DNA of 64,000 nucleotides from Macrophomina tecta (Eukaryota > Ascomycota > Dothideomycetes > Botryosphaeriales > Botryosphaeriaceae). Location: assembly GCA_024180945.1 (NCBI GenBank), contig JAKSGN010000007.1, forward strand, positions 868,001-932,000. The letters are read 5' to 3'. The notes below the pieces were generated by a model. That model worked only from the letters and a program-made list of their open reading frames with translations. It had not been told where the DNA came from and did no database searches. This document shows positions 6,643-51,627 of the stretch, piece after piece. Both the position numbers and the translations under genes were made by a program. Within the stretch, counting starts at the first letter, position 1, and the number at the start of each line of letters is the position of its first letter.

Positions 6643-7694
6643 ACGTTCTGGGGCCTTGGGGCGGCGGTGATGATTTGTTAGTGAAACTTTGAGTGACTTA
6701 CCTGAGCCGCGCTTACGACAATCTTCTGGGCAGCTATCGACCGTGGTATGGGTATGCACATTGAATTCGTTCTTTACAAATGGGGCTATCAAGGCCTGGA
6801 CCGCTACAACTTGGTACGCGGACTCCATCTTGCATGAAATTTCACATCTGATTGGGCTGTTCTTCCAGGGCATCTATATGTGCGCAATTTTCTATAACGC
6901 GACGCTCGGCATGGTGAAGCTTTCCGTCCTCTCCCTATACCGCCGTATCCTAGCCGGCGTTCCGAGCAGGAGGTTGCCAATTATTAATTGGATAGCCTTC
7001 GGAATCGTTAGTGTCAACACATGCGCCAACGTTTTCCTGGCGGCATTCCAATGCCGCCCCGTTGCAGCTGCATTCGATAGCAGCATTAAGGGAACGTGCA
7101 TTAACCAGGCCGCTTTCTACCTGGGCAACGCAAGCAGCGGCATATTCACAGACATTATGGTTTACGGCGTCTCTATCCCTATTGTGAAGCCTCTCCAGAT
7201 GGATCCTAGGAAGAAGCTTCAAACGTTGTTAACGCTCCTTCTTGGAGCTCTGTGAGTCGAACCTCTTTATAGTCTGTTTCAAATGGCGCAAAGGGCTGAT
7301 AAAAGCAATCTATAGCGCTATTGTCACCTCCTGCATTCGTATAAGCTTCCTCCCTGCCCTCCTCAAAACCTCTGATACCACATGGGCGACTTCTGTGCCG
7401 ATGGCTTGGTCCATTGCCGAGCCTACCATCGGAATCCTCGTCAGCTCCATGCCTGCCATGCGCACAATCCGGTACCTCTGGTCGCACGAGATTAAGCAGA
7501 GACGCTCGAGACATAGCAATCCATGCTCCGAGGGTCACATCCAGCTTCACCGTATTAGCGAAGCGAGAAATTCACAGAATGTGCGTGTGGGGCCCCATGT
7601 GGACAGCTTGGACGATGGTTTGATTTATGGGATTGAAGAAGGAAGAAACGGAGGCATCAGGAGAACAACAAGGTTAGAGGTTTCTTATCACTGA
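6643..7694 (+). pseudogene. Fung_rhodopsin-type 7-TM protein, C-terminal part of a split gene
   Basis: Carries the rest of exon 2 and exons 3-5 of a gene whose start is at 51246-51627 on the minus strand. Exons here: up to 6676, 6734-6813, 6869-7251 and 7316-7694; introns 57, 55 and 64 nt (donors GTTAGT, GTACGC, GTGAGT). The family signatures are visible: GMGMHIE after TM2, then the TM3 segment NATLGMVKLSVLSLYRRI, the AFQCRP loop, and the last helix near WSIAEPTIGILVSSMP. Joined to the minus-strand half at the shared ACGTT the coding length is exactly 402 codons (401 aa), normal for this family of fungal integral membrane proteins (receptor-like, function usually unknown). As it stands it has no promoter or start and must be dead. 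Confidence 0.88.
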
Positions 7695-8363
7695 TTGGCA
7701 AAGCAAGAGCTACACATGGGTAGGCAAAGAATTTGGATTGAAAAGGGTACCCAAAGACGTAGAAAAGCCTGCTGAAAGTGAACGTTGAGTCGACGTCTAG
7801 GGCGCGAGTTTTAAGCGACCGGGGTGCCGCGTATATATGACAGTCCGATTACTCCGCATTAGTAAGTGTCGACTTGGAGATGGTTGTTACACAAGGCAAT
7901 GAACTTCAAACACCATGCCACTGCTCATCTGATCAGCGCACCACGAACACCTGATCAAGAGACCATTCTTTTGTATATGTAGCCTCTCCGTCCAGCCTCT
8001 TCAGATAGCCAGCAGTCTCTCAATCTATCACTGTTCACCCCAAAATCCAACACCTGCTGTCAATTTTTTTTTTTTGAGTACCTACGGGAGGGCCAGCGCG
8101 AAAGCATCGTCTAGGGAGAGTTCAGGTGGATCTATCAATCTCAATCCATCTGCTAGTTATGCATTTTTTCACCGGATTCATCCGAATCGCCAAGTCCTAA
8201 AACGTAATGCCCTGCTCCGCTTACGGCAACCTCAAGTAGCAGACTAGCACTTGCGTCCGACTTCGCTAGTGATTAGGAAGTAATGAGTAGAAAAACTGTG
8301 CCACTAAAAATAACCGCCAGAGAACCGACGGCGCTTTCCTCTTGCACAAGCCACCCCGACCAA
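7695..8363. other. Intergenic, no gene seen
   Basis: Region between the ends of the split rhodopsin gene and the laccase pseudogene. It contains a run of 11 T near 8067 but no coding signature or repeat I recognise. Confidence 0.6.
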
Positions 8364-10409
8364 TTACAACCCCGAATCGGACTGCTGAAAAGCCTCGCCC
8401 CCACCATAGTAGTCCTTCCAAGCCGCACACTCATCGTAAAACGGGCCCGTATCGCCTATGACGCCCTCAATCTCATCCGGCCGCTCCAAGAACTGCAGCC
8501 CGAAGCCCTACTGGACGTGGAACGGGATGTGGCAATGCATGAGCCAGGCGCCGGGGTTGTCGGCCGGAAAGGCGAGGATGAGGTACCCACCCGCAGGTAG
8601 CATTGCCGTATCGCGCCGCGGAGGGTTATCGAACTGTAGGCCGTCGATGTTACCGTCCCACTCGCCGGCACCGGCGCCGAGGATGTAGAAGTCCTGGATA
8701 AATTGGATAAAAATTAGTAAGTTAGATTCACTTGTCCCTCTTTTACTATTTCGTTTAGGGAGGAAAGGAAAGGAGGGAACCTACGTGGCTATGAAGATGA
8801 ATTGGGTGCGGTAGGTTAATACGCGAGCCTTGCACGGTCTGGATAATGAAGTAATACCACTGGTCCGCCTCGTCTAGCTGGACTAGGTTAAGCTCCCGCG
8901 GGTACGACGTGTTCCTATCTAGGATATATTGGACCGTTGGGTAGCTCTAGTCGATCTCTATAGCCGAGCCGTTGATATACTACTAGACGAGCGGGCCTTT
9001 CTACTGCGTAATATTAACGCTTATCGCTAGGCTCTGGACGGCCTCCGCGAAGCGATCAGAGGGTACGGTATTAGCAACTCTTGGGATAAATGCTATATCC
9101 TCGCAGCCCGAGGAGATGTTATAGCGCGTGCTATTCGGCTAAGCGTCCGCGGGAGCCGTGTTATACGAGAGGATGGCTTTTATATTATCGGCGTTGCCGT
9201 TAACACTATAGGTAGAGTCCGGGTCGGAGCGGATCTAGTAGTTATTAACGTCTTAGTCGGCGATAAGGATTACGTCGTACCTCTGTCCTAAAGTGACGGT
9301 TAGCACCGAAATAATAGCATAAAGATCGGATATATTACTAACACCGAGGGAGATACTGGACGTCGAGAAGGGCACGATAGGGACGAAATTACTTGCAATT
9401 ACGGTGAGATTGTGCCTATTAACAAAGAAGAGATAATAGTCGTTAATACTAATATTTATTACGCGAATCCTGTACCGTAGACCATTCTTAATATGGATCT
9501 GATTATAGGCTCTAAGAGAACTGTTAGGGCTCTTTATCGTCCTATTAATGAGTCTATTATCCGCCTTCGGTGGGTCCCTTGTCGAATGTCCGGCAGCTTC
9601 GGCTAGTTTAAACATTGGAGTGTAATACTAGTTAGAAAGCATGTACACACTAAGATCGTGATCGTAGTGCGCGTCGGTGGGGCCGTTGATAATAATGCCT
9701 CCGAGAACGCCGTCGGAGTACTGGATAGAGTAATGCGAGTGATACTACGAGCTACCGTGCTGGGTATATTTAAAGGTGTAGGTCTTGGTCTCGCCGGGGG
9801 TAATTGGGTATTCTGTGATACTATTCGCCCTATCGGCGCCGTTGCTATTGTATTGGCGGAGTCTATGGAAATGGAGACCTGTACCGTTGTGGTCTAGGCT
9901 ATTCTTGACGTTGATAACCATCGTGTCTCCCCAATCAGCAATAAGGGTCGGACCGGGATATTGGCTATTCATAGCTATGACCAGGCGCTCTATTCCGTTA
10001 GGGGCCATCGTAGTGTTTGTGATCTCCAGATTATACTGCCCTCGATATTAGCGTAATGCTTCCAATAGGTGCGATGATTCCTTATAGTAACTGTCTTCCC
10101 GTTGGTGGGGAAGCGCTCGTCGAAATCCGTGTTAATGTTGAAGTTATCGCGCTAGCAGTTTCGAGCATCTTTGGAGAAAACACACCTATCTTTAGGGGTC
10201 GGGAGATTAAGATTATCTAACACTTCTGTACCTTGTGCGAGTGGGTTGGAAGGCTCCGCCCCGCCTCGAGATAGGTTGCCGAAACGAAATCCGTAATTCC
10301 GCGGGCTTAAGTAGTGAGTTCTATCCTTTATATTTGGTATCGAAAGTGCAAAGACAATGTAAGAGCAAAATACTAAAAGGCATATACTTAGGCGTGGAGA
10401 AAACGGCAT
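8364..10409 (-). pseudogene. Multicopper oxidase (laccase-like) pseudogene
   Basis: An N-terminal Met at 10409 starts a hydrophobic signal peptide, and fragments of the laccase fold follow in order. Copper motif L1 appears as HFHRLRQ near 9862-9885 (family HWHGIRQ), L2 as YHSHYSIQYSDG near 9716-9750 with its leading Trp changed to TAG, L3 as HPIHLH near 8790-8808, and L4 as HCHIPFHVQ at 8511-8537, directly followed by TAG. The C-terminus ends at TAA 8364-8366. Several stops sit where the family has Trp or Gln, i.e. TGG or CAG turned to TAG, which is a RIP-type pattern. When alive it would have been a secreted phenol oxidase. Confidence 0.85.
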
Positions 10410-11784
10410 TTTACAGTAACGGCAAGATGAATCGGGGCTCTAGTCGGAGGAATTAACTAAAAACTAAACGAGAGGCACGAGACACGAATAGTCTTAGTAG
10501 TATGTGACCTTAAGGAGGGACAGAAAAATAAAGGATCGATAGATAGTTTGTGAAAGAGAGGTGGGGAGAAGAGTTGTTTAAATACTTATACGAAAGCGAA
10601 AGACGCCGTAGCCTTTTTTCTCTTTTTCTTTCTTTTTTTTTTGCGAAATGCGATAGGGGCACTACATATAATTCATGACCCCTGATAAAAGACTCGCGGT
10701 AGGGGTTCGACGGGTGGTTTCTTAAGTTACGACCAAAGAGAGAGGTGTTGTGGAGGCTTAGGAGGATGCGGAATCGCGAGTGCGTGTTTGGCGCGAGCTG
10801 AGCAGGACTTGCCTTGGGAAATGTGGAGATTGCCTCGACATGTGGAAGCTTCCCGGAGAAGCAAACAAAGCCTCGTGAGCACGGTGATCTAAGGCACAGT
10901 TAGCCGTGAGAGATGTGCAGCAACATGCGGCCAATATTATAGGGTCGAAGCGTGGGCGAGAGCGTGCAAAGATATAAGCTCTCCTACAATAAATATAATT
11001 TAGCACTAAGCCACCTCTCCGCGATCGCTGGATTGTGCGCTAGCTAGCAAGGACTCTAATTAAGGCTTATCTTAACGCTATACTATAGTTCTTTAATAGT
11101 CGATGTAGTGGGTAAAAATGTCTTGCCAATGTGATGTCTGTAGTACAGTGTTGAGGGGAAGACTTTCAGGTGTCAGCGGGAGAAGACCGAGACCGGGACA
11201 TAAGAAGGATCAAGAAACTAGCGTCTTAGCGAATTCCCATGGCGTATTTATTTGAAAGGATATCTTCGCCCTTCGGCTCCCCACCGGACTTGCGACTCCG
11301 TGTTGCCTCTGCTTGCTCTTACGCTCGATTTTGCGAGAACCCATTGGCTTCGATAAAACCAATGGTCTTCAATTGTCTCTTCTTGTCAGGCACAAGAAAT
11401 ACCTATGGTAGCGCAAGATCAGTAGGCAGGATTTTCAGTAGAATAGCTGGACAAATAGAGTCGTGTCATTCGCCCAGACGTACGAGTGCATCGATATAGA
11501 CGCTAAACCTGTACGCAGCATTCCTTCAGCTCTTAATTTGGGGTGGACTATTGCCGGCAGCCGTCAATTGCGGCAATTACCGGTAATTGAAGCTGGCAAT
11601 TACCATCTGCTTATGTATAAGTGTATATCCATGAGAGGCTTAGCGCAAAGGCTTGGTGTTGAGTGCCACATGCGAAAATTGCGTATACCGTTGCTGTCTC
11701 TCTATCCTATTCCTCGTGTTATTCGCGTTCAGCGCCTCTCGCCTCTCTTGTACATCATTATGATAGGTCCACGTAACGGGAACT
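10410..11784. other. Intergenic, no gene seen
   Basis: T-rich tract at 10615-10642 and TA-rich stretches, some resembling RIP-mutated DNA (about 11040-11110). Small open frames here show no recognisable protein. Confidence 0.5.
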
Positions 11785-13010
11785 AGGCGGTATACAATGA
11801 GTTCACCATCATCGAGCCGTCTGCAACGGGTACGAAGCTTGGGCTCCGTGAGTGTAACCACTGCGGCTGGCGGCGTTCAGCAACCAAGGTAGGGGTGTTG
11901 AAGGGGCACTTGCGGACGTGCACGGCGTACCAAAAGAGCCCTCAGAGGCTCCCGCTGTTCTTCAGCTCAACGCCTGAGTCCTCGTTCGTTGGCTCGCCGG
12001 CTCCCTCTCAAGCCTCGTCGGTATCATCCCTTGGTGTTGCGCGTATGCCTGAGTCTCGGCTTCACCAGCGGAGGCTCACTGGGAGTATGAGCCTTTATAC
12101 TGAGGAGCAGCTGCAGCAGCTGCCTGCTACTACTATCTTCGAAGCCGGTCTCCCATTCAGTGTATTTGAGCAGCCGGCTATGCTGAAATATCTGAACGCA
12201 CTGAACGCGAGCCATGAGCCGCCCAAGCCGAATAAGGTTGCTAAGTTGCTGTTGCTTGCGCTAACGAAGGATCAATGCGAGGCGGAGGTACTGGCTCTTA
12301 TGCGTACGCAGAAGCAGCTGAACTTCGTTTCTGACGAAAGTGACGCACGCAGCGGCGCGCGTATATTAAGCACGTCAGTAGTGATGCCTGGTTCAGATTC
12401 GCTCTTCTTAAGGATGACTGACCTTGGCTTGCACGAGGCTACTGCAGCTGCTCTCTGGGAGGCGAACCGCGCAGTCGTTCTTCAGGCTGTAGGCGGCGCT
12501 GAACACGCTTGGAAGGTTAACAGCTGGGTAGTGGATACGTGCGCAACGACGAGAGCCATGCTCAAGCTTATAAGCGCTGGCCCTCTATTCAAGCACGTGT
12601 TTCCTGTGCTATGCGACTCACACGGCCTCCAGCTGCTGATGAAGGACATTCTGTCGTTGGTGCCGGTGTATGCGCGTACCTATAAGCAGATAAACTTAAT
12701 CAGTGCGTATATTCGCAAGGCTTCGAAGACTCGGCAGCTGCTGAAGGATATATGCGTCAGAAACAACGGCTCTATCACCAGCCTCGCCTAGGCGTCTTGA
12801 CGCGCTGGGGCAGTTTTAAGGGACTTATTTATTTATTTAGTTTAACGTCCTTTTAGAGTCGGAGACTATTAAAGACGGGCCGTAAGAGCGTTTTCTGCTT
12901 TTAGAGTTCTATATAGGGGTTGGTCGAGGTTCGTACTAGGAATAGTTGGCTTAAATGCCTGAAGAGAGGTTTTCCCTCTAAGGAAAGACTAGAGACATTA
13001 TGAAATAATC
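11785..13010 (+). pseudogene. hAT transposase remnant (BED finger + DUF659)
   Basis: An open frame from 11785 to 12791 encodes a BED-like zinc finger (CNHCGWRR near 11850, then GHLRTC near 11904), followed after a Ser-rich linker by a DUF659-type segment with FVSDESDARSG near 12327 and CDSHGLQLLMKDIL near 12615. The frame is broken at 12789-12791. Homology appears to go on in another frame with TRWGSFKG near 12800 and then decays with further stops. The catalytic C-terminal half and inverted repeats are missing. Confidence 0.75.
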
Positions 13011-13074
13011 GAAGAACTAACAAAACGAAAAGAGTGTGAGCGTTGAGCGTATTTATACCCCGTCGGGCAGGTCG

Positions 13075-13920
13075 TTAAGCATCCACCGACGCGTGGATAT
13101 CTTCGTTTTTTTGAAGGAAGTCTACAGTAGCAGAGATTCCTTCGGTTGTGGAGAGGAGGTACCGGAGGTTCATTCGGTTTGCGCTTAGAGTATTCTTTAC
13201 TGAGAGCCTTTCGGTTCTGTATAGAGGACATTCTAGGAGTAGGTGCCTCGGCGTTTGTTTTGCAGTACCAGAGCATGGACATCCATCGTCTTCTGCATGG
13301 TTGAAACGATGGAGATAGGACCTGAAGTAGCCGTGTCCTATCTTCAGCTGGTAGAAGGCAGATGCTGTTTCCCTAACTGTTGGATTTAGAGTGAAGAGTA
13401 GTGAGGTCAGAAAAGAGAGTAGATTCTGCCTGTCTCCTGAGAGGGAGGGAGGTAGGCTTGCTTATATACATAAATGAGTGTTTGAATAACCGAGGAGAGT
13501 AGAAGCCGATGTCGCTATCCGATGCTTGTGAAGATGAGGAGTAGTGAGGTGGTGGCAAAGAGTAGATGCTGATCTGAGGCAGTAAGGCAAAATAGTCTGA
13601 CACTTATCGAAGTAGGGGGCTTAAGCTTCCGTTTGATCTTCCAACCGAAAGTCTTGCTGTACGTGGATGAGGGAGTCGACTTCCGCCGGTTTTCCCACTC
13701 GTCATATAGCCGTCTCTTGACTTGCATACCGTAGTACACGAGGCTGGGTCGGTCTGTGTCCGGTGGTAGGGTGGCGGCCTTCTCTGCTAGTAAGTCGGCT
13801 TCCTCACTGCAATGGACATTGAGATGTTCTGGGACCCATTTGATTACGACTCTGTTGCCCTTATCCTTTAGCTTCTGGGCAGCCGTAATTGCCCGGAGTT
13901 GCCATCAGGAAATCATACAA
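13075..13920 (-). pseudogene. Tad1-like LINE remnant (end of ORF2)
   Basis: On the minus strand the end of a LINE ORF2 is readable. An RNase H C-terminal motif (VPEHLNVHCSEEADLLAEKAA-like) lies near 13790-13860, then an inter-domain stretch to 13620. After an interruption, the C-terminal zinc region (CPCSGTAKQTPRHLLLECP) lies near 13220-13280, ending in a stop at 13075. It is a 5'-truncated, diverged relative of the LINE at 30.2-35.7 kb. The block 13400-13597 between the two parts looks like an inserted LTR. Confidence 0.75.
13400..13597 (-). repeat. Possible solo LTR inside the LINE remnant
   Basis: On the minus strand it begins TGTCAGACTA and ends near CTGACCTCA, and contains TATATAAG. It resembles 19018-19200 (shared blocks around CCTCGGTTAT, the TATA region and TCTGACCTCAC), so it is a repeat of at least two copies. 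I found no convincing target duplication. Confidence 0.4.
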
Positions 13921-18640: not shown

Positions 18641-18673
18641 TCAACAAAATGCATCACCTTACTTTAATTATCT

Positions 18674-35697: not shown

Positions 35698-35760
35698 TGT
35701 AAGGCCGATAAGCTCCCTCAGTATCTCAGGTACGAATCCTTGGTTATGACCCTCAGTGGA

Positions 35761-36290
35761 GCTTCCCGTGGTTCCTCCGTATTATGATGTGAGGTGCAAA
35801 AGCAGCAAGTGGTGGAAGTGAGTGCACGGACCACTATTTCTAAAATTTTGCGCCGCAGGAGTAATTTGGTGCACCGGCGACCCGCCAAATACCCACCGAG
35901 GGGTGATGGTGGATGAAATCGCGTATTTGGTGCACCAATGACGGGTCGCCGGTGCACCGAATCCCCCTGGTGGACAACGGGGTGGAACACCATCCCTTCG
36001 TAACACCCCTGATACGCCCGCCATCGCACGAATAGAATTTTACTCATCGCTACAAGCTGAACCCGCAAGCGACCTGTATCAACCCCCCTGCACCTTCTTA
36101 GCATGGCACCATTACACGGGGGTCCTCTCCTAGTTAAATAGCAGCAGATAGACTGAATCCAGAGGACGGTGGTTTCGGCTTTTGCGCACCGTTCGATAGC
36201 GATAATCAATTTGTTTGTTCAGTTTCTGTGGCACTCATAAGTTTTTACTTTTAGCTCTTCATCGAAGTTCGGCCTGTTTCAGACGTGGCT
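35761..36290. repeat. Hairpin-forming spacer 5' of the LINE
   Basis: The arm TTTGGTGCACCGGCGACCCG at 35863-35882 is repeated inverted with one mismatch at 35944-35963, with a further TTTGGTGCACC near 35927. It could be a MITE-like element or a protein-binding palindrome. No gene recognised. Confidence 0.5.
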
Positions 36291-36293
36291 GAG

Positions 36294-36352
36294 TCCTTTT
36301 GCGGCCAATTGCTTTTGCGGCCAATTGCTTTTGCGGATAATTGCTTTTACAG
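36294..36352 (+). repeat. 16-17 bp tandem repeat (about 3.5 copies)
   Basis: Unit GCGGCCAATTGCTTTT repeated, the last copy degenerate (GCGGATAATTG). The flanking region to 37165 has no recognisable gene. Confidence 0.7.
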
Positions 36353-37481
36353 GGCCAACCGCTTAGCTTTCGTCCGGGCTCCGGTCTGCCTGGCCCGCCC
36401 TCGCCGCTCTGCTAGGAATATCCAGTCACGTCCATCCTAACCGCGAGCTGAATGGTTTTGTTTTGCGGGGGAGCGCGCGAGGCGGGACTAACGCGCAACC
36501 TGCTTGGCAAGGGGGTTCAGGGACCTTCGCTAGACGAGTTACGTGCTATGCTAGTCCAAAGAGAGGGAGCATCTAGCACGATCGCGAAGGGTTTAATCTC
36601 CATTTTTACGAGGAATTGCTACATGGATACAGACTTGCATTTGTGCACAAGCGCACTCACGAGGGGATATGGGATCAATCAGGAGTAGTTCGAAGTGGCT
36701 ATACGTCAGGGCGACTCTATTCTACTTGCCTTCGTATAGCGCTTAACGGCTCAATATTCGCAGAACATTAAGTACATCATACGTCGACGAGCTCGTAGAC
36801 ATGACCTGCGATCATTAGCCCACTGCGGGGATCAGACAGATTGCTGAACGGACTTTATAAGGTTCCTTTATGCATTATCTGGATGTGGCACTGCGATAGG
36901 GGTACTAAATTTGCGACGCAAGCTATGGGCCCGAGCGGAGAAAGCGCGGCAGCAAAGTGGGAGAGGTCAAGGGGGAGCACCTGATCTTTGCCCGCTAGAT
37001 GCGCCCGCTTCTCCACCACTTCTCGAAAGTTCTGTTTCAGCTTCCATGATCGCCCACCATCTGATTGCTCCTTGAAGCAAGCTTTTCCGGCTCCATGGTA
37101 AGAGCTGTCTTTCCCGCCTGGCATTCAGCACAGCGTCCGGCCCTTTCTCGGTCTTCCCTTCACCGTTGCCCTCGCCCTACCCTACTCCCAAGCACAGCCT
37201 TACTCCTCTCCGGGTGTTGCGAGTAGGAGTTACACGATTTGCCTACATTCGTCGCAGCATCTCTTCTCTTTTGGCGCTGATCAAGCCAGAGCTAGATTCT
37301 TGCCCTCGACTTGTTAGGTATAACGCGTGTTGGGCCATCTCATTCCCCTCCTCCAGACCGACTTCTTGGGAGCTTTCAACGGTCTTCCGTCGTCCGCACC
37401 ATAGCATGCCTGTTATCGCATCTATCCGAGCAAGGGGGCATCAGCGTGCATGACCATAACTGTTGCGCCAACATAAGCATG

Positions 37482-40400: not shown

Positions 40401-41046
40401 CCGGCTTGGCTCGGATGGGACGACTCAGATGAGCCATCGAATGATATCAACAAGGCGCGTATGCGCGCCAAGTACTATGGTGCGAGATACATTATCACGA
40501 GACCAATCCTTCACTGGGCCATTCATACCAACCCGGCCCCCACATTTTTGATGAAGCAGTATGGCTTCGCACTGGACAATGGGAGCGACTCGCCCGATCC
40601 ATCAGAGAATTTGGTATCAGACTCCCTGTCCAAGGCAAGCTGGCATAAGGTCATGATGGCAAGCAAGCGCTGCGTCGAATCTGCTGTGCAGAGCACCATT
40701 GCCTTCGATGGCGTCGAGAGCGCCAACCAGCGACTGATCGTTACCAATATCTTTGGAACAGCTCATGCGTAAGTACAGCCTAGAAGGATCTTTCTGCAAG
40801 GGTATGCTAACGTTGCGAACGCGAAGACAATTCGGCAACTGCCTCGTATTAGCGGCAGTGCGCAAGTCGTGGATGCGCGACCTCATCCCACACACACGCG
40901 TCATCGCGCTCGTCGAGCGTACCATCAGCTTCCTGTGTCGTCTAGTGCCCATTTCACCAACGCTGCGCGTGGACGTTGCGATTCTCGAGAACACGCTGAA
41001 GTGCCTGAATGGTGAGAAGCCAGATCCCGCTTCGGTGGACGCCTGA
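37482..41046 (+). CDS. Zn2Cys6 fungal transcription factor
   Basis: Seven exons (37482-38132, 38191-38300, 38359-39816, 39871-40026, 40078-40271, 40321-40768, 40827-41046) with agreeing phases give 1078 residues. The first 210 residues are Pro/His/Ser-rich and disordered. The binuclear cluster CX2CX6CX5CX2CX6C follows at about 219-246, beginning ACNNCRSRKQKC and split off by an intron just before it. A linker (PPPKQDRTL), coiled segment (NFASIPGRLDRIERQL) and the middle homology region from about 450 on, e.g. WTCLQLESDILAEM, complete the standard layout. A nuclear DNA-binding regulator. No damage seen; the intron before exon 3 has an atypical GTCAGC donor. An in-frame Met at 37311 exists, but 37482 is preferred because the upstream part looks like leader. 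Confidence 0.9.
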
Positions 41047-42285
41047 CTTGGGACAGTTTCATTCTACAATCGGAAGAGAGCGAGGTTAAGGCTGTCGACA
41101 CCTGTCAATCAGGCCATACTTATCTATTTTCTGAGGTAGGGACACGTGAGACATTCAGTGAAAGAGGCTGTCACCAGGGCGTTCCCCATCTCGCCTCGCT
41201 TTCGCTCCCGTCCGCAAACCCAGCTGGGCAGCCCTGCCGCCACGCTTGGAGCGCGTGCAACGATTACCCATCTGTCTGTTTCTTTTATGCATGCCATCAT
41301 GTTCAGCAACTTATACCGGATCTAAGTATCCCTAGAGGGCTCTATTATAGCCTTCACGATCGCGCCTTGTCTCTGCGCCTTCGTCTTCTAACAAGCGTAG
41401 TTGTGTGGCGCCCTGATTCCTTCTCAGCTTTTTGGGCTTTTCTTACTTCCCCTTCAAATCGAACCGTTATGCGCATCGTTTCCTTGCAAGCACTATCTTT
41501 TATATGATCTATATTCTGGGCGGAGAGCGCTGTCTTGGCATTTACTCCGGTGTTAAGTATTTTCGTCATTATTTTCCCTCCAAGAGTCTCTTTTCGCCGT
41601 CTCATTGGAAAAGGAACCTGTCCATCCTCTTCTCCCTTTTTTAGTTGCAGCATATAGTCCCCCATTTATCCGCAGGTCATCTGAGAGGCAATTCTACCTC
41701 GTGTCAGGTTGCAGCAATTTTCTGGGGGGGCGAGCCGGAGGAGGGGTTCGTGTTGCCCGCCTGACACCGCCAGGTCAGTTCGCTGTTCAACTATTTCGAG
41801 TGCGGGCATGGCGAAATGGGCAAACTGCGAGTCACCGACGACCAAGATAGAGGGGATCATCACGATGCACGTGCCTTTTTTTCGGTTGGTAGAGGAGGGG
41901 TGAGGGGCCGGCATGACATTGAGCCGGCATCTCTTGCTCATCACCTCAACCACTGAAGGCCTCTATCCGACGCATTCCTGCTACTTGTCAGGCTCTGAAA
42001 TTCGTCCGCACCATTCGCGTGTTTTAGCACTAAGATCACTGAGCATTAGCGCTTACGCGTTAGGGTATAAGGGTCCCTCTTTCCTTATTTCGTTTTCCTT
42101 TTTTCTCCTTACCTTTAGGAACTTCGTCCATTGAGCACCCACTTATTCCGATATCAGTGCAGGTCGTGACAATCAGCTTCGTTTCGTATCCTGTATATGT
42201 CATACCGCGAATAATTGAACGACGTACCTCCTTCTTCGCCTTCCCGTTTTTCACGTCTATGGTAATTAGTATCTCTGCTTCACGT
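41047..42285. other. Intergenic, no gene seen
   Basis: 3' flank of the transcription factor gene. Contains a G-run near 41721 and pyrimidine-rich stretches; short open frames lack signatures. Confidence 0.45.
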
Positions 42286-42289
42286 GGAG

Positions 42290-42590
42290 GGGCCGGGCTT
42301 CCCGCAGCATAATGAACTACTTGGAGAGGACTTCAGCGTACAGCAAGCATCTGCGCGTGGTGAGGGAAGGCACACTCTTCGCAGCAGGATGAGCTGGTTG
42401 TAGAGGACTTTAACGCACAACAGCGATCTCCGCGAGCCGGAGAGCTAGGCTTTCCCGCAAATACGATGAATCCACCTGAGGCTTCTTCGGCGTATAACAG
42501 CTGTCGTTGTAAGCGGGAGGGCTTGGCTTCTCGCTACAAGACGACTTGACCTGCGACTTCTTACACCGTGCAGCAGGCGTCTTTTAGGCG
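42290..42590 (+). repeat. Diverged tandem repeat, about four units of 70-80 bp
   Basis: Units starting near 42292, 42364, 42443 and 42516 share the order GGGCTT..CCGCA, TGA..CT, AGGACTTC, then CAGC..TCT with many substitutions. An old minisatellite or decayed coding repeat. Confidence 0.5.
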
Positions 42591-42761
42591 GAAGCCATTC
42601 TTGGAGTGCTGATGGGCGTGACCTCCGCAGACGCGCGTTCGCGAGCAGGCCCGCACGGTTTCGACTTGACTCCTCCGAGATTGGAGGACGTCTCGCTCTT
42701 CTTACAGAAGTAGGAGAAAGCTCTTGGCTCACGGTGGCTGCCCTGCCTCCGGTAAGCTGCT

Positions 42762-43206
42762 TGTTACGGCGCAGCCTGCACGGGTTGATGAAGAGGGGAG
42801 CAACCCCACCAGAGGCGGGCAGAACCAAAGAAATGTGGGCCAAGGGTCACGTGACCCCGCGATCAGTCAGACCCACTCGCCAAGAAATTGAGCAGACCAA
42901 CCCAACCGATCAGTAGGAGGGTCGCGATCAGTCACTGAGCGCAACACCTTCACTAAGCATACAGATTGTATACACTTTCTTACTTGTATATAAACCACAC
43001 TCCTTAGATAGCTTTGACCTTCGTGGTCAACTTCAATAACAATTCGCACATTGTTAGTAACACGGCCTTCGCACACAGTGCTCAGTCTCATCACGTGTTC
43101 GACTTGCTCTCACCCTCTTCTTGTACCCACTCAAGGAAAACCCCCTCGACAGGTTTTCTCCCTCTTTGGTGTTTGGATCCTTAGAGGCAGAGGCCCGCTC
43201 GTTACA
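42762..43206 (+). repeat. Solo LTR with 5-bp target duplication
   Basis: 445 bp from TGTTACGGCG to CGTTACA, homologous to the 442-bp LTR but clearly diverged in U3. It is flanked by CTGCT at 42757-42761 and again at 43207-43211, a perfect 5-bp duplication. It is an LTR-LTR recombination scar of an older element of the same family, in the orientation opposite to copy 2 next to it. Confidence 0.93.
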
Positions 43207-43211
43207 CTGCT

Positions 43212-43409
43212 GTTGCAGCAAGAGTCGACTTCCGAGCAAGAAGGGCTCTGCAAATGCATCCGAGCACCTCTAAAGAAGCGGCGCACTGGCGGTAAATCGT
43301 CAGCCTGTGACAGTCGCATAGATCGACTCGTTTGGAAGCTTGCTGCCCGAAACCGGTGTCTCTTTGACGGTAAGTAATGAAATAGTTGAAGATACTGGGG
43401 ACATCTTGA
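43212..43409 (+). pseudogene. Exon fragment of an unidentified host gene
   Basis: A frame of about 55 codons (LCKCIRAPLKKRR then RLVWKLAARNRCLF) ends in a good donor (GACG|GTAAGTAATG, about 43370) and is then cut by Ty3 copy 2 at 43410. It looks like coding DNA, but I do not recognise the protein. The rest of the gene is predicted to lie left of the window next to the 5' LTR of copy 1, because of the inversion. Confidence 0.4.
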
Positions 43410-43851
43410 TGTAACGAGCGGGCCTCTGCCTCTAAGGATCCAAACACCGAAGAGGGAGAAAACCTGTCGAAGGATTTCCTTGAGTGGGTACAAGAAGAGG
43501 GTGAGAGCAAGTCGAACACGTGACAAGACTGAGCACTGCGTGCGAAGGCCGTGTTACTAACAATGTGCGAATTGTTATTGAAGTTGACCACGAAGGTCAA
43601 AGCTATCTAAAGAGTGTGGTTTATATAATAGTGGGAGAGTGTATACAATCTGATAGTTCATGGGTTCATTCTGCCAAGCGGTTGAACGTCTGAACTTCGC
43701 GAGTTCAGGAGTTCAGAGTGCCAAGGCTCTGAACAGTTGAACCGGGAGTCACGTGACTCCTTGCCGGTGGATCTTTCTCGCGGGCGCGTAGGCGCCCCGC
43801 TTGTCCTTCTTATCCTTCTTACCCAGGTCCTGTGTAGGCTGCGCCGTAACA
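43410..43851 (-). repeat. 3' LTR of copy 2
   Basis: 442 bp, reads identical to the 5' LTR and to the copy 1 LTR. Same TATA box and palindromes as described for copy 1. Confidence 0.97.
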
Positions 43852-46800
43852 CTATCCCCCCCTTTAAGGATCTTCGGCCCGAAGATTCTCCGTAAAGGCT
43901 ATAATTCGTCTGCTGCTGTGATTCCTCTTTCTCCCGTAAGTTTCCTTCGTCATGGCTGGCGTGAAACGTTCTCGCGACGAGTCGGCTTATCGCGCTGAGT
44001 TGTCGACCGCGATCAATTCCTTTGCTCCGGTCACGCGTGCTTGTTTCGATTGTTCCGCTAACGGGCGTGTCTGTAGGATTGGTCCTCGTTCGTCCCGTTG
44101 TGGAGAGTGTGCGGCTCGTGGTTATACCATGTGTGACGCTCAGAGGGTTTCCGTGTCCACTAGTAAGGATTCGTTTTCTTTGTTCTTTTCCTTGCTGACG
44201 TCCTAACAGTGAATCGTTTGCGTCGCCAACAAGAGCGGATCCGTTCTGAGGAGGAGGCTGCTTATCGTGATTTCCAGGAGGCCTCGGAGGCGTTGGAGAG
44301 GTTACAATCTCGCCTTCGCGCTTCTTCCTCGAAGCTAGTACGCCTTCGGAAACAGCAGAAGTTGCTGGAGGATCGTGGTTTCTCCATTCTTGATCGCGAA
44401 CTTTCTTCGGAGGATGTCGCGGCTCTGGAGATGAAGGATCAGAGGCTGTTGGGGCAGCTGGCGGCTGGGGAGCCGTCTGACCCTGAGAATTCCGGGGGTC
44501 CGTCCGCGTCAAAACGGCCACGTCACGAGTCGGTGGATCCTGCTGCGCCGCGGGAGGCTGGGTTTGCCGATTCTGCCGGCGAGCCTGTGGCTGGTGCGTG
44601 GTCCCCGCGTTCTCCTGGACCTGTGGATTCTGTTCGCCGGTCGTCGTCCCTGGTGTGGGATGTTGCGACTCTCGAGGGCCTTCCGTCGTTCTCGTTCGAG
44701 GACGGCCTCGTTTCCGCGGGAGGTCAGGGTTCTGGCGATGGAACTCCGTGACAAGGTCTGAGTGTATGTCGTCCTTTGGCACCCACTGGTTGTCTTCATT
44801 CCCGTAACCTTCCCATTTGACGAGATATTTGAGCTGACGACCGAACCGCTTGCAGTCTAGGATCTTCTCGACTGGGTACTGGTCTTCTTCGGCGTCAGGG
44901 TTTTCTGGTATAATTTCTTCCTGAGTTTCCGGAATGGTGGCGTTTTCTGGTGCTGGCTCGAGCATTGCCACGTGAAAGGTGGAGTTCATCCGTGTGTTAG
45001 GCAATTTGAGTCGATACGTGACTTCTCCGAGTTTTTCTGCAATTTCGAATGGACCGATTTTCTTGAAATCCAATTTGTCGCTCGGTCGTTTTGATTTGAT
45101 GTTTTTCGTGAGGAGGTACACTTTATCCCCCCTTTTAAGGTTCGGTGCCGCCTGGTGCCGTCTGTTGTAGTATTTGGACATCATAATTCGTACATATTCG
45201 AGGTCGAGACTGATGGCTTTGTGCAATCCCCTTAGCTGCTCGGCCTTGAGAACGCCTTTCTGGGCCAATTTTCTGCTTGGGATGGCCTCTCTATACGCGT
45301 CTGGTTCAAACCCATAGTTGGCAAAGAACGGGGATACGTTGGTTGACTCTTGTTTGGCGCTGTTATAGGCGAATTGTGCCATGGGTAGCCATGTGGCCCA
45401 GTCATCCTGTGGGTAGTTGATGTAACAGCGAAGATACTGTTCGAGAGTCCGGTTCATCCGTTCTGTCTGGCCGTCGGTTTGCGCGTGTGCCGTTGTAGAG
45501 AGTTTGTTCTTTGCTCCAAGCTGGCGCATAAGCGTTTGCCAAAATTCTGATCTCATCAGCTTGTCCCTGTCCGAAACCAATACTTCCGGCATTCCGTGAT
45601 CCGCGAAGATGTATCGGAGAAACGTGTGGGCTAGCTGTTCTGCATTCGATGCCTCTAGGTAGGGCAAGAAGTAGGCGTACTTCGTGAGTCTGTCGACAAA
45701 GACTAGGATCGAGTCGAACTTGACTTCTGTGAGCGGGTCCCTAGACCTTGGTAGCTTTGTGATGAAGTCTAGCGTGACCCATTGCCATGGTCGTTCTGGT
45801 ACTTCCAGGGGTTGTAAATGTCCGTACGGAGCGTGTGTCGCGGCTTTGCTCCGGATGCAAAGGTCGCATTGCGAGACTATACGCTGGACCGTCTTTCGTA
45901 ATCCCGGAAAGTAGAAGTTTTGCGTGATCCTCTCGGTTGTCCTGTCGATGCCCTGATGTCCATGCGCGGGTGCTACGTGCATGTCTTTAACGAGTGCTTC
46001 TCGCAGTCTTGTCGGGACATAGATTAACCCTTTGAAGAGAAGCGTTCCTTCTCTATCTCGAGCAACACGCGGGTCGTCCTCAAGCGCTAAAAGTTCCTGC
46101 GCGAAGGAGTCCTGAGCGTATGCTTCTCGGATCTTCTGATGCCACGGGTTTGACTCGATGCGAAGCATTGGGAAAGACTGTCTGGCAAGGGTGAGCGATC
46201 CATCGCTTGTCCACTGCAGTACTGCAGGTTGCGGCTCGATTCTTCCTTCCATGTAGTCTACCCTTCTGCTGAGCGCGTCAGCGGCGGCGTTATCTACACC
46301 TTTTCTGTGTGTGATCTTGAAATTGTAGGATGCCAATTCTTGTGACCAGCGAACTTGTCGTCGGTTCAGCTCCTTGGTCGTGGTGAAGCGCGTGAGATTC
46401 TGATGGTCACAATGCACTATCACCTGTTGGTCGGTTCCTTCTAGGTAGTGTCTCCAGTGCTTGAATGCTGAGACGATAGCCAAGAGCTCCTTGTCATGAG
46501 TGTCGTAGTTGAGCTCTGCTGGGGTGAACTTTCTTGAGTAGAACGCGATCGGATGCCATCTGCCTTCATCGTCAGGCTGGCTGAGACATGCTCCTAGGGC
46601 GAATCCTGACGCGTCAGTTTCTACTTCGATTGGTTTGTCGGGATCGTATATCCCTAAGACGGGTGCTTCGCAAAACATCCGTTTCAGCGAATCGAAGGCT
46701 TGCTGCTGATCGTCTCCCCATTGGAAGCCATGCTCCTTCTGAGTGAGTCGCGTTAAAGGTTCCGTGACCTTTGAATAGTTCCAGATGAACTTCCTGTAGA

Positions 46801-48877
46801 AATTCGCGAACCCAAGGAAGGACTGTACTTCCTTGATCGTCTTCGGTACTGGCCATTCTCTGATGGAATCCAGTTTCGAGTCGTCCATACCGACATGTCC
46901 GGGGGTGATGACAAAGCCTAAGAATTCCACTTTCTGGGTATGCCAGAAGCACTTGTCCGGTGCAATAGTGAGATTCTTTGCTTGAAGCGTTTCTAGGACC
47001 TTTCTGACATGCTTCTTGTGTTCCTCAAGGGTGTCTGAAAAGATGAGGATGTCGTCGAGGTAAGCCATGCAGAAGATATCCAAGTATTCGCGCAGCGTGT
47101 CATTGACGAGATTCTGAAAGGTTGCTGGTGCGTTGGTAAGCCCGAATGGCATAACCGTATACTCGTATAGTCCTAGTCTCGTGCGGAAGGCTGTCTTCCA
47201 CTCTTCCCCTTCCTTGATTCTGACCAAGTGGTAACCGTCCCGTAGGTCCAGCTTCGTAAAGTACTTTGCGTTCCCTAACTTGTCCTGGAGCTCGTCGATG
47301 CGTGGGAGCGGGTATCGGTTCTTGATCGTGATGTCGTTAAGTTGTCGGTAGTCGACACAGAGGCGTAACTTGCCATTCTTCTTGGGGACGAAGAGGATCG
47401 GATATCCGGCTGATGACGTCGATGGCCGAATGTATCCTCGTTCGAGGTTCTTCTCGATGTATTCCTTCAAAGCCTCCATTTCCTTCTTTGATAAGGAGTA
47501 GATAGGCTTATAAGCCGGTTTCGTTCCTGGCTTGAGCGGAATCTCGTGGTCCCACGGTTGGTGCTTTGGCAAGTCTCCCTTTCCTCTTTCTTGGCAAACG
47601 GCAACTAAGTCCCAATATTCGTCGGGTACCGTTTCCATTTCTGGGATTGGAGGTGTTCCTTGTGGTTGCTGCCACATCTCCAAACTACCGTGTTGTCCTC
47701 TCTTGATCCTCGCAGGATCGTCTCCTCCGATGGGAGTTGGACAGTCCTCATCCCTTGGCCTTTCCCGTTGGGCCCTGGCCAGTGCTCTCTGTTGCACCGC
47801 CGGTGAGGGTTTGATGTACATGAGGCAGACCTGTTGTCCTTGGCGTCGCATACGCCTGAATGCCTCTCTTGAGATTGTCTGTACGTCCACGGGAGGTTCG
47901 GTGGCTGCCAATTGCTTCCGCGAAGCCTTACTCTTGGCCTTACGCTTTCTCTGCGTGGTCCTTCGTGACAAATGTTGTACCTGATTTTCGGGAATACTTG
48001 ACTCGGTAGGGCTTACTCCGCTTGAGGCGCTGCATTTTACCGAGGAGGCGGCGTCTTGCACGCTGCAGTCCTGGTCCTGTCTTAGGCCTCCCTCAAGGTT
48101 GCCGTTGATGTTGCCGTCACTGGGCCTTACGCCATCGTTTGAGTCTTGCTCTTCTCTTGATGATTCGAGGGTATCGTTTCGCTCGGTAGGGCTTATTCCT
48201 GCGATAGGGTTGCATTTTACCAAGGAGGCTTCGCCTTCTGCGTCGCAGTCCTGGTTCTGACTTACACCACTATCGGAGTCGCCTACACAGCTGCCGCTCT
48301 TGGGCCTTACGCTGGCTACTTCCCGATTCATAGTAGACAAGAGTCGCTGTAGGGTGTTCATTAACCCGTTTTCCATGCGTAAACCGAATTTTCGTAGGAG
48401 GTCGTCGATCTCTTCTCGAAAGACGATTTCGTCTCCTTCGCTGAAGTCGAAGATAGGTTTCTGTGTTCGGATCCAGGGCATACCTAGAATAATGTCATGC
48501 CCGGGGATCCTTTGGACATCGAGGGAAATCTGCTCCCGATGGTTCTTGATCTGGAGGGTTGCTTCCTCCGTTTCTATCTTTACCCAGCCTTCTCCGTAGA
48601 CTGAGCTTTTCCCGTCGAATCCGCTGAGTGGGTATGGCTCTTTCTTCTTCCGGTATAGGATCTTGCATTGTTCCACAAACTCGTTGTGTATAAAGTTTCC
48701 GCTTGATCCTGTGTCGATCAGTATCCTGATGGGCACTCCGTTGAGTGTTCCTTTCGTTTTGAATTGTTTCCAAAGATTTGGTCCGGTGAGAATTTCCGTA
48801 TTCGATGTGCGTGATACCATGTGAAGGGACCTAGACTGTGGCCCCTGGGTCGATCCCAATGCCGTAGGGCCGTCTAG
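43658..48877 (-). CDS. pol: Pol polyprotein with chromodomain (copy 2)
   Basis: Same domain order and catalytic residues as copy 1. The two differ at one residue near the start (Glu here, Gly in copy 1), which falls in the gag-pol overlap upstream of the slip site and so is only translated in the gag frame. Entered by -1 frameshift at 48883-48877. The frame runs into the 3' LTR to 43658, which is also occupied by the antisense gene between 43952 and 44751. Confidence 0.93.
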   Translation of the reverse strand, partial: LDGPTALGSTQGPQSRSLHMVSRTSNTEILTGPNLWKQFKTKGTLNGVPIRILIDTGSSGNFIHNEFVEQCKILYRKKKEPYPLSGFDGKSSVYGEGWVKIETEEATLQIKNHREQISLDVQRIPGHDIILGMPWIRTQKPIFDFSEGDEIVFREEIDDLLRKFGLRMENGLMNTLQRLLSTMNREVASVRPKSGSCVGDSDSGVSQNQDCDAEGEASLVKCNPIAGISPTERNDTLESSREEQDSNDGVRPSDGNINGNLEGGLRQDQDCSVQDAASSVKCSASSGVSPTESSIPENQVQHLSRRTTQRKRKAKSKASRKQLAATEPPVDVQTISREAFRRMRRQGQQVCLMYIKPSPAVQQRALARAQRERPRDEDCPTPIGGDDPARIKRGQHGSLEMWQQPQGTPPIPEMETVPDEYWDLVAVCQERGKGDLPKHQPWDHEIPLKPGTKPAYKPIYSLSKKEMEALKEYIEKNLERGYIRPSTSSAGYPILFVPKKNGKLRLCVDYRQLNDITIKNRYPLPRIDELQDKLGNAKYFTKLDLRDGYHLVRIKEGEEWKTAFRTRLGLYEYTVMPFGLTNAPATFQNLVNDTLREYLDIFCMAYLDDILIFSDTLEEHKKHVRKVLETLQAKNLTIAPDKCFWHTQKVEFLGFVITPGHVGMDDSKLDSIREWPVPKTIKEVQSFLGFANFYRKFIWNYSKVTEPLTRLTQKEHGFQWGDDQQQAFDSLKRMFCEAPVLGIYDPDKPIEVETDASGFALGACLSQPDDEGRWHPIAFYSRKFTPAELNYDTHDKELLAIVSAFKHWRHYLEGTDQQVIVHCDHQNLTRFTTTKELNRRQVRWSQELASYNFKITHRKGVDNAAADALSRRVDYMEGRIEPQPAVLQWTSDGSLTLARQSFPMLRIESNPWHQKIREAYAQDSFAQELLALEDDPRVARDREGTLLFKGLIYVPTRLREALVKDMHVAPAHGHQGIDRTTERITQNFYFPGLRKTVQRIVSQCDLCIRSKAATHAPYGHLQPLEVPERPWQWVTLDFITKLPRSRDPLTEVKFDSILVFVDRLTKYAYFLPYLEASNAEQLAHTFLRYIFADHGMPEVLVSDRDKLMRSEFWQTLMRQLGAKNKLSTTAHAQTDGQTERMNRTLEQYLRCYINYPQDDWATWLPMAQFAYNSAKQESTNVSPFFANYGFEPDAYREAIPSRKLAQKGVLKAEQLRGLHKAISLDLEYVRIMMSKYYNRRHQAAPNLKRGDKVYLLTKNIKSKRPSDKLDFKKIGPFEIAEKLGEVTYRLKLPNTRMNSTFHVAMLEPAPENATIPETQEEIIPENPDAEEDQYPVEKILDCKRFGRQLKYLVKWEGYGNEDNQWVPKDDIHSDLVTEFHRQNPDLPRKRGRPRTRTTEGPRESQHPTPGTTTGEQNPQVQENAGTTHQPQARRQNRQTQPPAAQQDPPTRDVAVLTRTDPRNSQGQTAPQPPAAPTASDPSSPEPRHPPKKVRDQEWRNHDPPATSAVSEGVLASRKKREGEIVTSPTPPRPPGNHDKQPPPQNGSALVGDANDSLLGRQQGKEQRKRILTSGHGNPLSVTHGITTSRTLSTTGRTRTNPTDTPVSGTIETSTRDRSKGIDRGRQLSAISRLVARTFHASHDEGNLREKEESQQQTNYSLYGESSGRRSLKGGIVLRRSLHRTWVRRIRRTSGAPTRPRERSTGKESRDSRFNCSEPWHSELLNSRSSDVQPLGRMNP
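43952..44751 (+). CDS. Antisense spliced gene in Ty3 copy 2: Zn2Cys6-like array plus coiled coil
   Basis: Exons 43952-44162 and 44210-44751, intron 44163-44209 (47 nt, GTAAGG...GCTGAC...ACAG), 250 residues after splicing. The ATG is 100 bp from the inner edge of the LTR. Cysteines 31, 34, 41, 50, 53 and 61 as in copy 1. The only coding difference seen from copy 1 is Gly instead of Glu in the coiled-coil region (near 44452). The retained splice sites, phase and frame over 250 codons argue for a real gene, but both copies are too similar to each other to test selection. Confidence 0.72.
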
Positions 48878-50712
48878 TTTTTTGGCTTCGGATAGCCGTA
48901 GACTTCGCTGTGCATGTAGTCTTTCCATTCGTTGACTTGAAGGTATGCTTGTTTCCAGTTGGTCCATTTATTGGCACGCAACTGTTTCCGCTGGTAGACT
49001 ATATCCCTTCGCACCTGGTATCGGAAAGTCGGCATGTTGAGTTTCTCGTCCGGTATCCACTGGAGTGTGCGATTCTGGATGGTTGCCGTACCGTGCCGAC
49101 AAAGAATCCTCGCTAACTCTCGGAGGGAGTCGTAGTCTGCCTGTTCGCGCGCAGAGGTTCCTTGGTGGTGGCGCTCGACAAGTGTCGTATTCTTAGTTAC
49201 TGGGAGTTCGTACTTCTTTCCGTTTTGTTCGATCCGGATTTCCCAAAGAGTATTCTGGCGCCATTCCCAGAGGACTGTCAAGGCAAGGCTTCTTTGATGC
49301 GGAATCCAGATGGTCCTGAGGTTGCCCCATTCGTCATGTAAGTGCTTGCTAATGCCGTATCTTTCGGCAAGAACTTCCAATGAGATGAGGGTATCCCATT
49401 TATCGGACAGCATCGGAGGGTCCCCTGACCGTACGCTATCGCCGCTTTCGGTCGTGCTCTCGTAGAGTTCTCCTGTTTCGCTGTTGACCAGTTCTTCGTC
49501 CAAGGGGAAACTGTCGATAATATCGTCGGTCTCGATGACTTCCTCGTTCCTAGTCATCATACCGAATTGTCGCGGTTCGTGGGGGTACCATCCCGATATG
49601 TCCTTGCTGCTTTGGTGCGTCTGACAGTCATCGTTGTAGCAGGCTGTCCAGTGCAGCATATCGTGATTGTCTTGACGGGATGCAACCGATGCTTCGCGTT
49701 GAGCGCTCGAGGTCTGCTTTCCATCCTTCTTGTTGCGAGGGTTCTGCGGGCACTTAGGAGAGAAGTGCTTGTCACTTCCGCAGGTGATGCAGAGTCGATC
49801 CTTGTAGCGCTGTTTTTGCTCGTCCGTCCAGTTCGGGTTAGGTCCTTTGGGCTTCTTGTTTCGACCGTTGTTGTTGCCCTTCTTGGAGTCCTGTCTGTTG
49901 GCCGCGTCGAGGGCCATAGCGTCTCCGCCTTCGAGGGTTGTTCTTTCACGGCGAGGTTTCGAGGTGTTGGCTTGTCGGGAACCCATTTTCCATTCGTACA
50001 TGCGACCGTCGATCTGAGACGCAAGGTCTACCATCTTTTGAAAGGTGGCCGGGTATTCGTGGGTAATCATGTTCTTCTTGACTTCTTCCTTCAGGCCTTT
50101 GTAGAAGAGGTCGCGGAAAGTCTCGTCTGACCATTCGAGGTAGGCTGCAAGCTGTTGAAACTTGGTTGCGTAGACAGCTACAGATCCCAATTGTTTAACG
50201 GTCATGATATCGTTGGAGGCTTTGCGGACTTCATCTCGATCGTTGAAAGTGGCCCTAAGGTTGTCTGCGAATCCCGTATAGGTGCCGAAGATTTCCTTGG
50301 TCTTTTCTCGTCTCTTCTCGAGAGAGTGTTCGTTGGCTAGGTGGTCGCGAAGGTATGGTTCCATCCATGCCTCTGCCGTTCCTCTGAGGTAGGTCGATGC
50401 GAAGAGTACTTCCTCGGCGTCGCTGTCGAATTGCGCTTGATTGAACTGGAGGTAGCGTTGCATCTGGAGGAGGAAGGATTGAAGCTTCTTCCTGTCCCCA
50501 TCGAACTTCTCGGGTGCCGCTACTTTAACCTTAGTAGCGCTCCGCTTTGTCGTATGCTCGATCAGTCGAGCGTTCTGAGCCTTCAGCTCCTCGATGAGCT
50601 GCAAGAGCTCAGCTCTGGTGGGCTCCGTTTGCTGTGTGGGCTGAGCTGGCCCCTGGGCACCCTGAACCTGACCCTCGACCGGGTCGACCTCCATCTGAGA
50701 TCCTGGTGCCAT
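48874..50712 (-). CDS. gag: Gag polyprotein (copy 2, complete, 612 aa)
   Basis: Starts ATG at 50712, 91 bp after the 5' LTR. Residues about 30-60 are predicted helix. The capsid-like retrotransposon Gag domain follows (APEKFDGDRKKLQSFLLQMQ to the YLRGTAEAWMEPYL region, about 70-120). A CCHC zinc knuckle is at 308-321. A long tail of about 290 residues follows the knuckle, where many Ty3-like Gags end soon after it. It forms virus-like particles in the cytoplasm and packages element RNA. Confidence 0.95.
   Translation of the reverse strand: MAPGSQMEVDPVEGQVQGAQGPAQPTQQTEPTRAELLQLIEELKAQNARLIEHTTKRSATKVKVAAPEKFDGDRKKLQSFLLQMQRYLQFNQAQFDSDAEEVLFASTYLRGTAEAWMEPYLRDHLANEHSLEKRREKTKEIFGTYTGFADNLRATFNDRDEVRKASNDIMTVKQLGSVAVYATKFQQLAAYLEWSDETFRDLFYKGLKEEVKKNMITHEYPATFQKMVDLASQIDGRMYEWKMGSRQANTSKPRRERTTLEGGDAMALDAANRQDSKKGNNNGRNKKPKGPNPNWTDEQKQRYKDRLCITCGSDKHFSPKCPQNPRNKKDGKQTSSAQREASVASRQDNHDMLHWTACYNDDCQTHQSSKDISGWYPHEPRQFGMMTRNEEVIETDDIIDSFPLDEELVNSETGELYESTTESGDSVRSGDPPMLSDKWDTLISLEVLAERYGISKHLHDEWGNLRTIWIPHQRSLALTVLWEWRQNTLWEIRIEQNGKKYELPVTKNTTLVERHHQGTSAREQADYDSLRELARILCRHGTATIQNRTLQWIPDEKLNMPTFRYQVRRDIVYQRKQLRANKWTNWKQAYLQVNEWKDYMHSEVYGYPKPKN
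48877..48883 (-). promoter_or_regulatory. -1 frameshift heptamer, copy 2
   Basis: A AAA AAC in the gag frame immediately before the stop (48876-48874), identical to copy 1. Confidence 0.85.
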
Positions 50713-50784
50713 TGCTGTTTCCTAAACTCGTTAGGGGGTGATACCTTACCCGATGAGACTTGATCTCGGAACCTTCCTCTCCTT

Positions 50785-50803
50785 GCAAGGATGGTGGTCA
50801 AAG
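50785..50803 (-). promoter_or_regulatory. Primer-binding region (possibly self-priming)
   Basis: Sense sequence after the 5' LTR is CTTTGACCACCATCCTTGC. It does not begin with TGG, so it does not look like the complement of a tRNA CCA end. TTGACCAC is the exact complement of GTGGTCAA, which lies in the LTR about 35 bp after the TATA box, near the expected RNA 5' end. Self-priming of this kind is known for Tf1 of fission yeast. Confidence 0.5.
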
Positions 50804-51245
50804 TGTAACGAGCGGGCCTCTGCCTCTAAGGATCCAAACACCGAAGAGGGAGAAAACCTGTCGAAGGATTTCCTTGAGTGGGTACAAGAAGAGGGTGAGA
50901 GCAAGTCGAACACGTGACAAGACTGAGCACTGCGTGCGAAGGCCGTGTTACTAACAATGTGCGAATTGTTATTGAAGTTGACCACGAAGGTCAAAGCTAT
51001 CTAAAGAGTGTGGTTTATATAATAGTGGGAGAGTGTATACAATCTGATAGTTCATGGGTTCATTCTGCCAAGCGGTTGAACGTCTGAACTTCGCGAGTTC
51101 AGGAGTTCAGAGTGCCAAGGCTCTGAACAGTTGAACCGGGAGTCACGTGACTCCTTGCCGGTGGATCTTTCTCGCGGGCGCGTAGGCGCCCCGCTTGTCC
51201 TTCTTATCCTTCTTACCCAGGTCCTGTGTAGGCTGCGCCGTAACA
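50804..51245 (-). repeat. 5' LTR of copy 2
   Basis: 442 bp; the outer edge abuts the interrupted exon 2 of the Fung_rhodopsin gene at 51246. Confidence 0.97.
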
Positions 51246-51627
51246 AACGTGAGCTGCGGCACTGTCAGCATTTCAACGATATTGCATTGCCCGGTATCAT
51301 GTACCACTGCTAGCAAGTTGAAGACTGATTGGATGTTAGCTCCATTGAATCCCTGCTTCTAGGCCACTTACCATCATCCATTCCCAAGAAACGGGTTATC
51401 TGAAGAGGGGAGGTATCCTTAAATCCATGTTTTAGTTTTAAGCAGTAGCGGCCTAGTGTTCGTAGAATGAGTGTGACGAAAACAATGACTATGCATGATA
51501 TAGCTATCGCCCTTGCCCTGGCCTTAAGATAACTGAAGTTAGCATAAGCATGGATTTGTTGAAGAAATGTTCTCACGGTCTGGTTCTCGCCTGCGCTAGG
51601 CGATAGCACTTTGGGGATATCCATCAT
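51246..51627 (-). pseudogene. Fung_rhodopsin-type protein, N-terminal part of the split gene
   Basis: Exon 1 is 51627-51372 (ATG, TM1 segment AIAISCIVIVFVTLILRTLG, ending in GMDD). Then a 47-nt intron 51371-51325 (GTAAGT, GCTAAC branch, CAG) and the first 79 nt of exon 2 (51324-51246). The frame stops at the LTR edge in the middle of codon TT|C and resumes correctly at 6648, next to copy 1. The promoter side of the gene is intact here, so transcripts could read into the LTR. Confidence 0.87.

Follow-up and report, generated by a model that had tools for sequence, protein, structure and literature searches.

How do two parts of a single Fung_rhodopsin-family gene come to lie ~44 kb apart on one contig of Macrophomina tecta, each abutting a copy of the same Ty3/gypsy element? 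The stretch analyzed here (the window, 64,000 nucleotides, G000:C7:868001-932000) belongs to a genome of 54.1 Mb in 37 contigs, and positions below are those of the window unless a contig is named. The sequence of this one assembly makes it probable that a single crossover between two inverted copies of the element flipped the interval 6643-43409. The exchanged target-site duplications, the near-identity of the two elements, both ancestral junctions and the continuity of the gene on contig C36 are observed directly in the assembly, with the uninterrupted sites coming from other contigs of the same genome; we infer that a homologous crossover in the organism, and a single event, lies behind them. 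The mechanism is a known one and this is a new, well documented instance of it.

The two elements are almost the same sequence in opposite orientation. Copy 1 lies on the forward strand, begins at C7:866807, 1,194 bp to the left of the window, and occupies positions 1-6642 within it, with its 3' long terminal repeat (LTR) at 6201-6642. Copy 2 is complete within the window on the reverse strand (43410-51245, 7,836 bp; LTRs at 43410-43851 and 50804-51245), and the in-window part of copy 1 matches it. Over all 7,836 positions the copies differ at two, both within the 6,642 bp that lie in the window, and when three copies were compared each of these differences was private to one copy. The LTRs have TG...CA ends, and the pair is identical over its 442 bp within each copy. 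Because the LTR pairs are identical, both insertions are recent, although LTR identity leaves no date. Pfam searches of two stretches of copy 2 matched gag/capsid, aspartyl protease, reverse transcriptase, RNase H, integrase zinc-binding and chromodomain families, in the order gag, then pol with protease, reverse transcriptase, RNase H and integrase, then a C-terminal chromodomain. The zinc-binding and C-terminal domains of the integrase were matched; the integrase core family was not among the matches on these two stretches. By its predicted domains and its termini the element is a Ty3/gypsy chromodomain LTR retrotransposon. Copy 2 also contains an antisense frame on the forward strand (43952-44162 and 44210-44751, joined across one 47-nt intron) that would encode 250 amino acids, with an N-terminal cysteine cluster and a middle part that looks coiled-coil-like by eye. 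This protein gave no Pfam match above the family cut-off, and six homologues were found among 2,016 candidates, the named ones being from Macrophomina phaseolina and Botryosphaeria dothidea.

The short duplications beside the elements are exchanged between the two copies. ACGTT stands immediately to the right of copy 1 (6643-6647, forward strand) and again on the 5' side of copy 2 (51246-51250, reverse strand), while the 3' side of copy 2 has CTTGA (43405-43409 on the forward strand), which is TCAAG in the sense of the element. TCAAG also stands at the 5' end of copy 1, outside the window at C7:866802-866806. Copy 1 thus reads TCAAG-element-ACGTT and copy 2 reads ACGTT-element-TCAAG, a reciprocal exchange. 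From base composition, and with the uninterrupted sites left uncounted, the chance of finding both 5-mers at the two places predicted by the model is ~9e-7. An ordinary two-sided insertion of copy 2 is ruled out by its unlike flanks. Gene conversion leaves the flanks of elements unexchanged and so, acting alone, is ruled out as well.

Both sites also exist elsewhere in the genome without an element. On contig C36 the two halves of the gene abut at a single ACGTT (C36:158681-158685): C36:155000-158685 corresponds to window 54930-51246, and C36:158681-164999 to window 6643-12961. The 3' side differs from the window at 4 positions in 6,319 bp, and the 5' side at 58 positions over 3.7 kb, one of them in the 382 bp of the gene's 5' part. 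On contig C31, window 36000-43409 joins the left flank of copy 1 at a single CTTGA (C31:2147324-2147328), minus a solo LTR. Apart from the target-site duplications, neither junction shows a missing or an extra base. These joins are the junctions as they were before element insertion, carried on related segments and not on this locus in another individual. Taken together they give the presumed pre-inversion order as left flank, element B, the interval reversed, element A, right flank. The initial annotation had proposed from the window that a crossover flipped this 37-kb interval, citing the ACGTT after copy 1, the ACGTT before copy 2 in its own sense, and a CTTGA flank that did not suit an ordinary insertion of copy 2; all three flanks read as it described, and the TCAAG to the left of copy 1 and the junctions on C36 and C31, each of which the model predicts and might have failed to match, now support the proposal from outside the window.

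The solo LTR (42762-43206, forward strand, 445 bp) belongs to a related family and has CTGCT duplicated on both sides. Because the C31 site lacks it, it represents a separate event. Of the 58 differences on the 5' side of the C36 junction, 50 fall in C36:155000-155800 (window ~54130-54930), ~2.9 kb or more from the site, and 55 are transitions; repeat-induced point mutation could be the source of this transition-rich stretch. Both flanking regions have further relatives in the genome. The gene's 3' part (6643-7694) has five full-length matches including its own place and one partial match (269 bp, 74%), and for the 5' side (51246-52600) there are two full-length matches, its own place counted, along with 29 partial matches. 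Macrophomina phaseolina is described, in passages of one study, as haploid and clonal (PMC6829926). If the present species is the same, this favors paralogous segments over allelic haplotypes for C36 and C31.

We envision a scenario in which two copies of a young Ty3/gypsy chromodomain element inserted in opposite orientations at sites ~37 kb from each other. Element A would have entered exon 4 of the Fung_rhodopsin-family gene, duplicating ACGTT, and element B would have entered sequence beside an intact paralogue, duplicating TCAAG. A crossover between A and B would then have inverted the 36,767 bp between them (6643-43409), the extent given by the reciprocal duplications and by both ancestral junctions found elsewhere, so that the gene's 3' part came to lie at the far end and the elements swapped one target-site duplication.

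The gene itself records the break. Its 5' part lies on the reverse strand (51246-51627; exon 1 at 51627-51577, exon 2 at 51522-51372, exon 3 at 51324-51305 and the start of exon 4 at 51253-51246), and its 3' part on the forward strand (6648-7694; the rest of exon 4 at 6648-6676, exon 5 at 6734-6813, exon 6 at 6869-7251 and exon 7 at 7316-7694). The element interrupts codon 77, which belongs to exon 4. The whole gene on C36 (158304-159732) has a frame that stays open across the insertion site. The initial annotation had joined the halves into five exons of 256, 108, 80, 383 and 379 nt. That structure is reproduced on C36, with 401 amino acids and a stop and no internal stop codon; what it missed are two introns, of 54 and 51 nt, in frame and with GT...AG borders, which it retained as coding. 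We replaced it with a model of seven exons (51, 151, 20, 37, 80, 383 and 379 nt; 366 codons) because aligned homologues lack both stretches: the seven that were aligned, out of 39 obtained by a protein search that scored the 7,995 candidates with the most words in common, are all without the 18 and 17 residues in question, one of these seven also being without neighboring exons. The match of the C36 gene to PF20684 (cut-off 27) scores 172.9 bits with seven exons versus 162.8 bits with five, and spans profile positions 9-234 of 237.

The earlier proposal had also suggested comparing the joined protein with single Fung_rhodopsin proteins. The comparison bears it out: aligned with the corrected 366-residue protein, 31 of the 39 homologues cross the junction, starting at or before residue 80 and ending at or after residue 330. 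When the two halves of the five-exon C36 translation were compared separately, 29 of 39 matched both, in order, and the remaining ten matched the second half only, many of them being shorter proteins. Among the candidates scored, the closest named homologue is a partial M. phaseolina protein, B0J12DRAFT_636022 (P0001), which has the same residue as the C36 protein at 277 of 279 aligned positions. Compared directly with the DNA it gives 100%, 84% and 79% in three stretches, of which the lower two cross introns and missing exons. Missing from it are precisely the 39 residues that exons 4 and 5 (37 and 80 nt) encode, a stretch starting at the exon hit by the insertion; this gap could be a slip of the gene model, or the gene of that isolate could be damaged at the same point. 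The broken gene has intact relatives just to the left of copy 1 and on C36. The former, C7:864845-866273, encodes 366 amino acids with the same exon layout and is separated from copy 1's left end by 533 bp. A third gene copy, on C31, lacks the first part; a 2.4-kb dispersed repeat lies 16 bp from where its match breaks off. The loss of the split copy is probably buffered by these paralogues.

How far the assembly can be trusted at this element is the main question for our interpretation. It may be that both elements still have matching duplications in the organism and that the interval was turned around in assembly, between 7.8-kb repeats with only two differences; we consider this unlikely. 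In its favor, copies 1 and 2 are almost indistinguishable, and such a flip would yield the very junctions that we see. Moreover, contig C26 (23,566 bp) is redundant with the interval's left part, window 6635-30199. The last 7,067 bp of C26 correspond to 6635-13700 with one gap and its first 4,200 bp to 26000-30199; between these compared ends a 60-base sample is exact, and the remainder is deduced from its size. C26 reaches 8 bp into the LTR of copy 1 and stops there, so that the assembly is not clean at the edge of the interval, and its other end lies at a border within a long interspersed nuclear element (LINE), window 30199/30200, one base before the points at which contigs C36 and C22 begin. 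Contig C19 in turn ends in another copy of the Ty3/gypsy element. These ends show an assembly that is, on the evidence of its own contig borders, tangled both at the Ty3/gypsy element and at the LINE. Two further points weigh against an inversion in the organism: the elements on C36 and C10, described below, have discordant flanks without a reciprocal partner, and any chimerism of copies 1 and 2 is unreadable when they differ at only two sites. In the LINE (~30180-35700, reverse strand), a frame that encodes endonuclease and reverse transcriptase domains is preceded by a smaller one; C36 and C22 both begin exactly at window 30200, inside the LINE.

Two observations argue against an assembly flip. 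The assembly comprises 37 contigs for 54.1 Mb, which suggests long reads, the technology being unstated, and many copies of the repeat were resolved correctly. We found at least 13 full-length members of the family, a lower bound from the best 40 candidates scored, which were located by both element ends; the member on C18 measures 9,083 bp between its ends. Both flanks can be read for 12 of the 13, the thirteenth running into the end of C19, and eight of these 12 carry matching 5-bp duplications while four are discordant. Because eight of 12 are concordant, the assembly seems usually to have read through the 7.8-kb repeat. Of the four discordant copies, only copies 1 and 2 form a reciprocal pair. 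In a subset of nine readable copies, eight had a matching 5-bp duplication and the ninth, C10:682465, was mismatched, as was the copy on C36.

This mismatched pair (L031, C36:310078-317913, and C10:682465-690301) shares the 3' flank GCGTTCTTAAAG, and the 5' flanks differ from each other and do not match it. The same 3' flank occurs on C5 and C9, where AAAG is followed directly by GCGTT with no element in the stretch fetched, and this left side fits neither element. No reciprocal partner of the two was found among the at least 13 copies, and the left flank of the C36 copy, used as a query, had no other full-length match among the candidates scored. Since the flank exists on C5 and C9 without an element, further rearrangements, duplications or assembly joins would appear to have used the Ty3/gypsy element at C36 and C10.

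The near-identity of the two elements also raises the idea that the interval is still flipping. Because copies 1 and 2 are nearly identical, nuclei with either orientation might coexist in culture, and C26 would then be a trace of the other orientation. We regard this as quite improbable.

We also think it improbable that more than one rearrangement took place, with the interval put together from pieces by exchanges that involved other family members or the LINE (~30180-35700), and the flanks swapped without a simple inversion. In favor of such a history, segments of the interval recur on C26, C36, C23 and C31, and the 3' flank common to the C36 and C10 elements has, on C5 and C9, a left side found with neither. 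However, a single event is enough to explain two swapped duplications at inverted copies of the same contig, and neither ancestral junction calls for a further step. That the two halves are independent fragments, duplicated pieces and not one cut gene, is hardly credible even in a multi-copy family with a truncated copy on C31, since the halves have ACGTT in common, are contiguous on C36 with a frame open across the exon 4 site, and differ from C36 at only five positions over the 1,700 bp compared.

A single crossover between inverted elements would place this locus beside inversion 2z3 of Drosophila buzzatii. The passages of that study give as criteria element copies in opposite orientation, exchanged duplications, a single target at the non-inverted breakpoints, and chimeric elements (PMC2775673). 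As in 2z3, with its Galileo elements, oppositely oriented copies stand at the breakpoints here, their duplications are swapped, and the target is single at each non-inverted breakpoint. Two differences are apparent from the same passages (PMC2775673): Galileo is a DNA transposon with visibly chimeric copies, whereas the present element is an LTR retrotransposon in which chimerism is unreadable; and the uninterrupted sites of 2z3 are on other chromosomes of the species, whereas ours lie on related segments of the same genome. Among fungi, Ty1 of Saccharomyces cerevisiae likewise rearranges chromosomes by recombination of dispersed LTR retrotransposons, in laboratory experiments (PMC3102749, PMC9879454), while here a natural event would be read from its flanks. 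A further comparison is with M. phaseolina, probably either the species at hand or close kin to it, in which inversions and translocations have been reported between isolates along with many Gypsy elements (PMC6829926). Large rearrangements and abundant Gypsy LTR elements are common to both, but the passages of that report give neither breakpoint sequence nor a causal element, unlike the case described here.

Two observations on the window stand apart from these questions. The interval contains a transcription-factor-like gene whose closest match is M. phaseolina MPH_14010, though at only 85, 91 and 97% in three stretches, which leaves room for a close relative as the source species; and no Rfam match reached the gathering threshold.

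The locus offers a clean example of a probable natural inversion in a filamentous fungus, for which the source insertions, the exchanged duplications and both uninterrupted sites can be read in one assembly. Annotated gene models in regions of this kind may have been split without notice, and young repeats are places where an assembly should be checked. A simple screen for such events is to look for full-length elements whose two flanks disagree; in this genome it flags four of the 12 copies of this family with both flanks readable. If the interval were still flipping, the element pair would act as an unplanned switch in a region of the genome rich in duplicates.

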